Shown here in pieces: positions 17,639 through 21,924 of a stretch of DNA of 35,755 nucleotides. The DNA is taken from NCBI GenBank assembly GCA_011049455.1, contig DSBL01000146.1:1-35755 (forward strand), written 5' to 3'. Positions within the stretch are counted from its first letter, which is position 1. The number at the start of each line of letters is the position of its first letter. A program made the position numbers and the translations under genes. The notes under the pieces are model-generated. The model ran no database searches and was not told the DNA's origin. It worked only from the letters and a program-made list of their open reading frames with translations. Origin of the DNA: Desulfonatronum sp. (GTDB taxonomy: Bacteria > Desulfobacterota > Desulfovibrionia > Desulfovibrionales > Desulfonatronaceae).

Positions 17639-18706
17639 ATGATCGCCCCCTGCCCGTCCTCCTTCACGCTTCCCTCCCGCCTTCAGGATCTGCCCCCGGC
17701 GTGGGCCCGCTTTTGTCTGCGCATTGACCGCTTTATTTCCCAAACCGTCGGCCCGATCCATAATCGCCATCTGCTCCTGGCCTGCTCCGCGGGCAGCGAT
17801 TCCCTGGCCCTGCTTCTCGTCATGAACTCCCTGGCCTCGCGCCTTAAAATCAAGCTCAGCGCGGTCCACCTGGACCACTGCCTACGCTCGGAATCCCGGA
17901 ATGAGACTTTGGCTCTGGCCCGTGTCTGCGCGACCCTGAACATCCCTTTGAAAATCGGCCGCAGCAACGTCGGCCGATACGCCCGCAAAACCGGCCTGGG
18001 CATCGAGGAGGCCGGGCGCACGCTTCGCTACAGGTTCCTCCTGGGCCTGGGCAAAAAAATCAACGCCGACCTGATCCTGACCGCACACCACGCCGACGAC
18101 CTGGCCGAGGACGTGCTGATGCGCCTGCTGCGCGGCGCGGGCTGGCCCGGCCTAGCCGGAATGCCCGCCTGGGACCCTAAGCGACGCTTGGCCCGCCCCC
18201 TGCTGCGCACCACCAAACAAACCTTGCAAACCTTTTTGCGTGTTCTGGATCTGACTTGGCAGGAAGACGCCAGCAACGCAGATCAAAATTTCCTGCGCAA
18301 CCGCATCCGTTCCGCGATCCTGCCGGAAATCAAGCGGGAATTCCCCGGGATGCATCGCGGCATTGCCCGATTGCACGCTTTGGCATCGCTGGACCTGGAC
18401 TATTTCACAACACGGCTGGCGCCCCTGCTTACCAAGGCCAGAGAGCACGGTCATTTCCTGGAACGGCGTGATCTGGCCCACCTGCATCCGGCCCTGCGTT
18501 TGCGTCTGTTCAAGGCCCTGGTGGACGACCTTGGTCCGGGCCAGGCCCGCCATGATGCATTGCTACGACTGGAACAGGCTTGGCAAGAGAATCGCACCGG
18601 AGCATGCATTCAGTTTCCCGGCGAGAAAACCGGAACAGTCACCGCGCAAGGAATCCGATTCGCCGTTTCCAGAGCGGCCCAACGAGGAGCAAAACCATGC
18701 GCCTGA
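17639..18706 (+). CDS. tilS: tRNA(Ile)-lysidine synthetase TilS
   Basis: 355 residues. TilS converts C34 of the AUA-reading tRNA-Ile to lysidine with ATP and lysine. The PP-loop is ACSAGSDSLAL (48-58); the usual SGGxDS reads SAGSDS, one Ala replacing the second Gly. HLDHCLRSES, the GIEEAGRTLRYRF segment, TAHHADDLAEDVLMRLLRG and NFLRNRIRSAILP are all TilS landmarks. A C-terminal domain follows. ATG 17639 is 11 bases after the previous stop with a poor ribosome site. The end overlaps the cyclase gene by 10 bases. Confidence 0.94.
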   Translation: MIAPCPSSFTLPSRLQDLPPAWARFCLRIDRFISQTVGPIHNRHLLLACSAGSDSLALLLVMNSLASRLKIKLSAVHLDHCLRSESRNETLALARVCATLNIPLKIGRSNVGRYARKTGLGIEEAGRTLRYRFLLGLGKKINADLILTAHHADDLAEDVLMRLLRGAGWPGLAGMPAWDPKRRLARPLLRTTKQTLQTFLRVLDLTWQEDASNADQNFLRNRIRSAILPEIKREFPGMHRGIARLHALASLDLDYFTTRLAPLLTKAREHGHFLERRDLAHLHPALRLRLFKALVDDLGPGQARHDALLRLEQAWQENRTGACIQFPGEKTGTVTAQGIRFAVSRAAQRGAKPCA

Positions 18707-20175
18707 AAACCAAACTCTTTCTCGGCATTTTTCTGATCGCCTTTCTGGCATCCGGAGCCACGGGCTCGTTCTTCTACTATCAGGCCAAAACCGCCCTGCT
18801 GGAATCCATCCGACAGCAGCTCAAGGCCACGGCCAAAATCGCCGCGCTGCTCGTGGATGGAGACATGCTGGAATCCTTGACCGAGCAGAAACACATGGCC
18901 ACCGCAGAATACCAGGCGATCCAGGATCTGATGGGCGTCATCGCCCAATCCAACGCGGAATACCTATTTGCCTACACCATGCGTCTGGATCATGGAATCG
19001 TCCGCTTCGTCGTGGATTCGCCAGCCCATGACGACGACGGGGACGGAGTGATCAGCGAAGACGAACTGCCCGAACCCCTCGGCGCCATCTATCCTGATCC
19101 GCCGGATGAATTGCTGCAAGGTTTTGTAAGGCCCTCCAGCGACCAAAAACCTCACACGGATCAATGGGCCACCACCATGTCCGGATATGCGCCCATACAC
19201 AATCGGGCCGGTCAAGCAGTAGACCTGATCGGAATTGACATGTCCCTGGACAGGGTGGACAGCAAGTTGACCGCTATCCGGCAGGCCGGCTTGGCGTCTC
19301 TTGGCCTCGCGGCCTTGGTGGCCATGCTTATGGGCTGGTATTTCAGCCTGCGCATCTTCTCCCCCCTAGCCAAGCTGGAACGGGCCCTGACCCGGGTTGC
19401 CAAGGGTGATTACGCCCACCTGTTGGATGAGCGTGGCCGGGATGAAATTTCGGCGTTCGCCAAGTCCTACAACGACATGGTCCGGGAGTTGAAGGAAAAA
19501 GCCTGGATGAAGGCCAGTCTGGGCAAAGTGCTCGGTCCCCAGGCCGCCGCCCACCTGCTCCAGCATCGCCTGCAACTGGGCGGCGAGATGCGCGAGGCGA
19601 CCATCCTGGTCTGCGACTTGCGTGGTTTCTCCCGCCTAAGCGAAAAACTGCCGCCAAAACTCCTGGTCGGACTGATCAACGACTATTTCACGGCCATGGT
19701 GGAGGTCATCCAGAAAAACAAAGGCATGGTGGACAAATTTGTGGGGGACATGGTGCTTGCGGTCTTCGGTCACCCCGTGCCTTTGGAAAATGCCCGGAAA
19801 GCCGCCCTGACCGCTGCCCGGGAACTGATCCATCGCTGCGATGCGCTCAACGACTCGCTGCAGCTCTCGAGCGACTTGCACCTGGAAAACTCCGTGGGAC
19901 TGCATTGCGGACCAGTGCTGGCCGGAACCATCGGCAGCCCGGAACGCATGGAATATACGGTCATGGGCCTGACCGTGAATGTGGCCGTGCGCATGGAAAA
20001 GATGACCAGGGAGTTGGGCGTCCGATTAGCGGCCAGCGGGGAGTTCGTCCAGCACCTGGATCAAAACCATGGCTTGATTCATGCCGGAAGCCAACCCTTG
20101 CCCGGCATGCGCCTGGCCATGGATGTTTATGTGGTTGAAAATGATGTAAAAAAAGCAGACGAACAGGCAATATGA
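18697..20175 (+). CDS. Membrane adenylate/guanylate cyclase, EF-hand in sensor
   Basis: 492 residues: membrane helix 1 at 5-27, a periplasmic sensor at about 28-195, helix 2 at about 198-218, a HAMP domain, and a class III cyclase domain from about 295. Catalytic residues are present: metal ligands D307 (VCDLRGFSRLS) and D351 (KFVGDMVLAVFG), purine-contacting K347 and T421 (MEYTVMG), and transition-state N428 and R432 (VNVAVR). K plus T fits adenylate cyclase of the bacterial type, though GTP use is not excluded. The sensor holds a perfect EF-hand loop at residues 112-123 (DDDGDGVISEDE), suggesting calcium binding. ATG 18697 follows CGAGGAGC and overlaps tilS by 10 bases. Confidence 0.92.
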   Translation: MRLKTKLFLGIFLIAFLASGATGSFFYYQAKTALLESIRQQLKATAKIAALLVDGDMLESLTEQKHMATAEYQAIQDLMGVIAQSNAEYLFAYTMRLDHGIVRFVVDSPAHDDDGDGVISEDELPEPLGAIYPDPPDELLQGFVRPSSDQKPHTDQWATTMSGYAPIHNRAGQAVDLIGIDMSLDRVDSKLTAIRQAGLASLGLAALVAMLMGWYFSLRIFSPLAKLERALTRVAKGDYAHLLDERGRDEISAFAKSYNDMVRELKEKAWMKASLGKVLGPQAAAHLLQHRLQLGGEMREATILVCDLRGFSRLSEKLPPKLLVGLINDYFTAMVEVIQKNKGMVDKFVGDMVLAVFGHPVPLENARKAALTAARELIHRCDALNDSLQLSSDLHLENSVGLHCGPVLAGTIGSPERMEYTVMGLTVNVAVRMEKMTRELGVRLAASGEFVQHLDQNHGLIHAGSQPLPGMRLAMDVYVVENDVKKADEQAI

Positions 20176-21246: not shown

Positions 21247-21924
21247 ATGAACGAACAAATCATTCCCCATCTGGATCGTGTTCCCGTTTTTCACGGTCTT
21301 CCTCGAGACCAGCTACAAGCCCTGGTCGACATCGCCGAGCCCAAGATTCACCAGCAAGGGGATAACATTTTCATGGAGGGCGACCCGGCCGAGGGTTTTT
21401 TCCTGATTCTTTCCGGCCAGGTCAAGGTGTATAAGTTGTCCCTGGACGGCAAGGAGCAGGTGCTGCACTTTGTCGGCCCGGACGAAATCTTCGCCGAGGT
21501 CCCGGTCTTCTCCGGAGGAAGCTATCCAGCCCACGCTGATGCCCTGCGGGAGACCAGAACCCTTTTCTTTCCCCGCCGGGCAATGCGCGCACTGCTGGCC
21601 AAGGATCCCAGTTTGGCCATGAACATGCTGGCCGACTTGTCCCGCCGTCTGCGTCAGCTGACCTTGCTGGTGGAAAATCTGTCCTTGAAGAAAAGTCCCG
21701 CCAGGCTGGCGGCCTATCTGTTGCACATGAGCACGGAACTGCTCCAAACCGACGAGGTGGAACTTGATATCACCAAAGGCCAGCTGGCCACCCTGCTGGG
21801 TACCACGCCGGAAACCCTGTCTAGGACCCTGAAGAAGCTCTCTGAAACCGGGATCATTCAGGTCCAAGCCCGGACCATCCGGCTTTTGGACAAGGTGGCA
21901 CTGGAACGCATGACCAACGGATAG
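21247..21924 (+). CDS. Crp/Fnr-family regulator, DNR/HcpR-like
   Basis: 225 residues: a cyclic-nucleotide-type beta-barrel (about 1-115), a dimer helix and a winged helix-turn-helix (175-215). The recognition helix TPETLSRTLKKL (187-198) has E189, S192 and R193, the Fnr-type E-x-x-S-R pattern that reads TTGAT half-sites. The protein has no cysteine, so it cannot carry an Fnr iron-sulfur cluster. At the phosphate-binding cassette it has FAEVPVFSGGSYPAHA; the CRP arginine is replaced (Pro94 by alignment), so classic cAMP binding is unlikely. The GGxYPA pattern is like DNR/HcpR proteins that sense nitrosative stress through haem. The target is unknown. The ATG at 21247 follows GGGAGACCAGGGCC. 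Confidence 0.92.
   Translation: MNEQIIPHLDRVPVFHGLPRDQLQALVDIAEPKIHQQGDNIFMEGDPAEGFFLILSGQVKVYKLSLDGKEQVLHFVGPDEIFAEVPVFSGGSYPAHADALRETRTLFFPRRAMRALLAKDPSLAMNMLADLSRRLRQLTLLVENLSLKKSPARLAAYLLHMSTELLQTDEVELDITKGQLATLLGTTPETLSRTLKKLSETGIIQVQARTIRLLDKVALERMTNG

Follow-up and report, generated by a model that had tools for sequence, protein, structure and literature searches.

The window analysed here, a stretch of 35,755 nucleotides from Desulfonatronum sp., a sulfate reducer, encodes a membrane-anchored class III adenylate cyclase whose sensor carries what is, by its sequence, a genuine Dx[DN]xDG-type loop, and this loop is very likely to bind Ca2+. We give a probability of roughly 45% to the full explanation that we prefer, in which Ca2+, as a cofactor of the lid, would tune how the sensor responds to a ligand in its pocket. 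An EF-type loop combined with a Cache domain and a class III cyclase seems not to have been described in the open-licence literature searched.

The cyclase, its sensor and the loop

The cyclase gene (18697..20175; all features given here lie on the plus strand) was identified as an open reading frame with Pfam matches and encodes 492 residues. It starts at the ATG at 18697, where it overlaps the end of tilS, and its domain order is first transmembrane segment, single Cache sensor, second transmembrane segment, HAMP and cyclase. The transmembrane segments were placed by hydropathy at about residues 7-27 (18715..18777; maximum at residue 7) and about residues 198-218 (19288..19350). Pfam recognises the signal-transmitting HAMP domain at residues 217-266 (19345..19494; PF00672, E 2e-9) and Guanylate_cyc at residues 299-481 (PF00211, E 6.9e-19, above the cut-off), the latter marking the class III catalytic domain (19591..20139), in which six catalytic residues are also conserved; it gives the sensor no family name.

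The sensor comprises residues 28-195 (18778..19281), and the two hydrophobic segments that bracket it fit a periplasmic location. Its AlphaFold2 model, built from 78 homologues, has a mean pLDDT of 91.5 and consists of a long N-terminal helix and a PAS-like sheet. The best matches to solved structures found by VIA-align are DcuS (3by8; Z 14.2, rmsd 2.2, 131 aligned residues) and CitA (1p0z; Z 14.2, rmsd 2.4, 128 aligned residues), and the model thus supports a periplasmic single Cache domain resembling that of DcuS and CitA. The first-pass annotation had assumed a periplasmic sensor and proposed this structure prediction, and both the hydrophobic segments and the predicted fold agree with it. 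At the sequence level, the window sensor matches none of the Pfam Cache models, 11 of the 78 homologues touch sCache_3_2 (best E 0.0029), and no close relative was found among PDB sequences.

The predicted calcium-binding loop, DDDGDGVISEDE, is of the EF type (DxDxDG), known from calmodulin as a calcium site, and occupies residues 112-123 (19030..19065), an assignment based on PROSITE PS00018, the orthologues and the model. The 13 residues D112-L124, namely the loop followed by L124, match PS00018 in full, and the canonical ligand positions 1, 3, 5, 7, 9 and 12 are all present together with G6 and I8, just as had been claimed from the first reading. The loop reads DDDGDG ... E123, that is, the Dx[DN]xDG motif with a later acidic ligand. 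About 0.14% of shuffled sensor sequences matched PS00018, and 0.04% matched a stricter pattern; a full match is thus rare by chance. The earlier term "EF-hand", however, is too strong for the site, since both the flanking EF helices and a partner loop are absent. In the model, where the loop has a pLDDT of about 87-92, it is preceded by a beta strand (77-83) and followed by only a three-residue helical turn (model residues 97-99); the Pfam EF-hand model barely touches the protein (E 0.2, below the cut-off); and the whole protein contains a single match to the pattern, leaving no second EF loop for pairing. A helix-loop-helix EF-hand was therefore rejected, on the evidence of the model and of the low Pfam score.

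Two conserved motifs mark the Cache pocket. The first is Y-T-M-R at residues 93-96 (18973..18984), of which Y93, M95 and R96 are invariant in alignment A1; the second is D155-x-W ... S162-G-Y-A-P166 (19159..19194), whose columns are invariant or nearly so in alignments A1, A2 and A3, in loop-bearing and loopless sequences alike. The loop comes after strand beta-2 and ahead of the conserved segments G..Y, PS.D and D.WG...SGYAP, and from the known Cache fold we infer that it lies in the lid of the pocket, between beta-2 and beta-3.

The catalytic set consists of the metal-binding aspartates D307 and D351, the adenine-specific K347 and T421, and N428 and R432. All the residues expected of a class III adenylate cyclase (metal Asp, Lys/Thr and Asn/Arg pairs) are thus present, as the first-pass annotation had noted, and on this basis the cyclase looks active. 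The same six residues are invariant in 20/20 full-length orthologues, including three (L017, L019 and L021) in which the loop is degraded or lost, which indicates that the catalytic domain outlives the loop.

The gene neighbourhood offers no clue to calcium. The tilS-cyclase-TPR order is kept within the genus only and the window genes checked around the cyclase are housekeeping genes, so that nothing ties the cyclase to calcium, and genomic linkage was set aside as a clue. A CRP/FNR-family regulator lies nearby in the window (21247-21924) but is probably not a cAMP receptor: its pocket does not have the Arg and Ser with which E. coli CRP contacts the cAMP phosphate, and its adjacency to the cyclase was therefore dropped as evidence. 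Elsewhere in the same genome, three proteins have intact phosphate-binding cassettes and are thus candidate receptors for any cAMP made here, although none adjoins the cyclase gene. One is a BrkB-like membrane protein with a C-terminal cyclic-nucleotide-binding domain (L199:1426-2721, contig C1); another is a PilZ - cyclic-nucleotide-binding - Ser/Thr kinase fusion (L200:469-2361, contig C103) with an intact GE..RTA cassette, possibly a kinase that reads both c-di-GMP and cAMP; the third is a truncated cyclic-nucleotide-binding frame (L203). Apart from the enzyme described here, a single class III cyclase was found in this genome; it has a CHASE2 sensor (L205:1-2256, contig C9).

Conservation and distribution of the loop

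Full-length orthologues were gathered from genomes of the same order, Desulfovibrionales. Across six families of the order the metal-coordinating positions are conserved while other positions vary: of 24 aligned loops, all have E12 and 22 retain D1, D5 and G6, and the mean entropy is 0.64 bits at the coordinating or structural positions versus 1.43 bits at the remainder. Outside Desulfonatronovibrionaceae the corresponding values are 0.23 and 0.95 bits; there D1, D5, G6 and E12 occur in 13/13 loops, and position 3 is D or N. Among these 13 are the loops of every full-length orthologue found within the genus, five in all, and they have nearly all canonical positions intact, the exception being a single F in place of I at position 8. 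Such sequences support the view that the loop is under selection.

The survey of homologues suggested in the first-pass annotation therefore found conservation of the coordinating positions across the order, but also loss or degradation of the loop in some Desulfonatronovibrionaceae. Most loops in this family have Thr at position 3; in a solved lectin structure, Thr at the second D position still coordinates Ca2+ (PMC3123361). Within the family, weakening or loss of the loop occurred several times, although the sensor and the enzyme stayed intact. The loop is degraded or lost in L017, L019, L021 and L066, and several such orthologues retain the pocket and catalytic residues. The existence of such orthologues implies that the loop is dispensable for the core function. 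Among the orthologues sampled, decay is confined to this family; we do not claim that it is tied to low free Ca2+ in soda lakes. Two loop-bearing orthologues (L027 and L023), from two genomes of one genus, have broken cyclase frames (170 and 286 residues open), which are either pseudogenes or assembly errors.

For the wider family, 84,980 species genomes were scanned with the sensor alignment, which yielded 305 relatives, and the best 80 were kept; the survey outside Desulfobacterota thus represents the best 80 of 305 loci from one scan and is biased to window-like sequences. The slot that holds the loop lies between FVVDS and G..Y and is of variable length; in most relatives it contains a short turn, of about 5-10 residues in loopless homologues. 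A complete EF-type loop was found in the same slot of a Fibrobacteres class III cyclase (L078, DQNNNGIIDPEE) and of a Peribacteria histidine kinase (L112, DENGNGIIDPEE), and a partial one in a Planctomycetota histidine kinase (L127). A hybrid histidine kinase from the window's own phylum (L041:1141-3153) also has a partial DxDxNG loop there, DYDRNGIFEGERE. The sensor of the Fibrobacteres cyclase is likewise modelled with confidence (pLDDT 93.5) as a single Cache domain of the DcuS/CitA type; the model matches CitA with Z 15.0 and rmsd 2.1 over 128 aligned residues, and its loop lies in the same place, after strand beta-2. Viral contigs yielded no relatives, and plasmids only a single distant chemoreceptor.

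Outputs across the sensor family include GGDEF and HD-GYP domains, histidine kinases and one chemoreceptor. As classified by simple sequence motifs, all cyclase-linked members sampled either have the loop or belong to the family in which it decays, and a full loop occurs in only one sensor with a non-cyclase output; the motif test missed two cyclases (L004 and L005) and left the short loop-bearing frames L023 and L027 unclassed. In a tree of the sensors calculated from profile match columns, the Fibrobacteres cyclase is placed beside the Desulfovibrionales cyclases (support 0.82) and the Peribacteria kinase elsewhere, so that the association between loop and cyclase represents two or three origins at most and is weak evidence.

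What calcium may do

The pocket motif D.WG...SGYAP is common to about 100 loopless homologues that drive other outputs, and for this reason Ca2+ is unlikely to be the core signal of the sensor family. Conservation of the pocket with or without the loop instead points to a separate core ligand, probably a small molecule. In the explanation that we prefer, Ca2+ would be bound through D112, D114, D116, the main-chain carbonyl of V118 and E123, and would fix the Cache lid beside the conserved pocket, which a second small ligand would occupy. Calcium occupancy would then tune or permit the response to that ligand, and the response would travel by way of the second transmembrane segment and HAMP, reach the cyclase dimer and alter the amount of cAMP. 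The analysis establishes the sequence, its conservation, the predicted fold and the intact active-site residues; that calcium binds, that the lid is gated, that there is a second ligand and that cAMP is affected are all inferred.

Almost as likely, though we hold it tentatively too, is a permanently occupied structural site, in which periplasmic Ca2+ would simply staple a long lid loop and carry no information. A purely structural loop would be expected to leave the same sequence signature; most known bacterial extracytoplasmic Dx[DN]xDG loops are listed with a structural or unknown role (PMC3123361); and the loop is single, unpaired and without EF helices, in sensors that, like their enzymes, persist in orthologues after its loss. 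Loopless homologues, however, fold on their short turns, which makes a staple unneeded unless the longer lid has a role, and loop and cyclase output go together in the family sampled.

The first-pass annotation went further and proposed direct periplasmic control of cAMP synthesis by calcium. This view is partly borne out: the evidence supports selection on the loop, its recurrence in the same slot in other phyla, a periplasmic Cache sensor and an apparently active cyclase. It does not support control by calcium alone, against which the pocket motif of loopless homologues and the loss of the loop from orthologues with an intact enzyme speak. That binding to the loop by itself switches cAMP synthesis is possible but quite improbable, and less supported than either a cofactor or a structural site. 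Its canonical ligands are conserved, there is already in CasA a periplasmic Cache cyclase that responds to Ca2+, and the loop is nearly confined to the cyclase-linked members of the family; the pocket motif, on the other hand, stays conserved across many outputs whether or not the loop is there, loopless orthologues with an intact cyclase occur naturally, and the association of loop and cyclase has few origins. In its broader form, that a clade of transmembrane adenylate cyclases lets external Ca2+ set cAMP directly through an EF-type loop grafted onto a Cache domain, we consider the idea rather unlikely. A relic, that is, an acidic insertion past binding Ca2+ or one that binds another metal, would agree with the decay in part of Desulfonatronovibrionaceae; it is the least probable of these readings by far, because the window loop retains every canonical position, the full-length orthologues found in the genus retain nearly all of them, and variation falls mainly on non-coordinating positions.

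Known systems and significance

The sensor model is structurally closest to DcuS and CitA (sCache_3_2), which are likewise periplasmic and lie between two membrane helices, but these sense C4-dicarboxylates or citrate and have a histidine kinase output, whereas the window sensor drives a cyclase. PhoQ, another periplasmic sensor, is PAS/PDC-like and binds Ca2+ and Mg2+, but does so at a membrane-facing acidic surface patch without an EF loop, and it drives a histidine kinase rather than a cyclase. The closest functional parallels are the Ca2+-responsive diguanylate cyclases CasA of Vibrio fischeri, which has a periplasmic dCache domain, and CdgK of V. cholerae, through which extracellular Ca2+ alters a second messenger (PMC8576532). 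They share with the window protein a periplasmic Cache-type sensor coupled to a cytoplasmic nucleotide cyclase and, if calcium acts as proposed here, a response to Ca2+. The product of CasA is c-di-GMP, formed by a GGDEF domain under a dCache sensor, whereas the window protein combines a single Cache with a class III cyclase (PF00211); the proposed Ca2+ residues of CasA, D236 and E293, are scattered, whereas the window loop is contiguous and of the EF type, and the text of the CasA paper does not mention EF-hands (PMC8576532). Rv2435c, an adenylate cyclase, also has an extracytoplasmic Cache sensor, but the Cache is double and a Ca2+ loop is not mentioned (PMC4822843).

Among calcium sites, the Dx[DN]xDG loops surveyed in 2011 resemble the window loop in their motif, later acidic ligand and extracytoplasmic location, but the structural contexts in the main text of that survey do not include Cache or PAS (PMC3123361). 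EfhP of Pseudomonas aeruginosa, predicted to be periplasmic, also has canonical EF loops and binds Ca2+ (Kd 13.7 uM), but it contains two EF-hands and does not belong to a transmembrane enzyme; no membrane cyclase was found among the entries covered of a 2022 table of bacterial EF-hand proteins (PMC9132961). In the open-licence literature we found no EF-hand in a bacterial Cache domain, and neither a Ca2+-gated bacterial membrane adenylate cyclase nor a Cache adenylate cyclase with a Ca2+ loop. The remark in the first-pass annotation that such control is not an established bacterial pathway therefore stands for cAMP within that literature, but not for c-di-GMP, for which CasA already establishes a Ca2+-controlled Cache cyclase (PMC8576532).

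It is common for bacteria to respond to external calcium, but few of the receptors are known, and in the open-licence literature searched none of them links calcium with cAMP by way of a membrane cyclase. From these sequences, calcium control of bacterial cAMP emerges as a specific and testable idea. If calcium did set cAMP directly, the cyclase would act as a Ca2+-to-cAMP receptor within a single protein, and Dx[DN]xDG would have gained a new structural setting. If the loop is only structural, the Cache fold would join the contexts of EF-type calcium loops, and the loop would still be a signature for calcium-dependent sensors in other phyla. If it regulates the enzyme, it would offer a defined site together with natural loop-plus and loop-minus orthologues.
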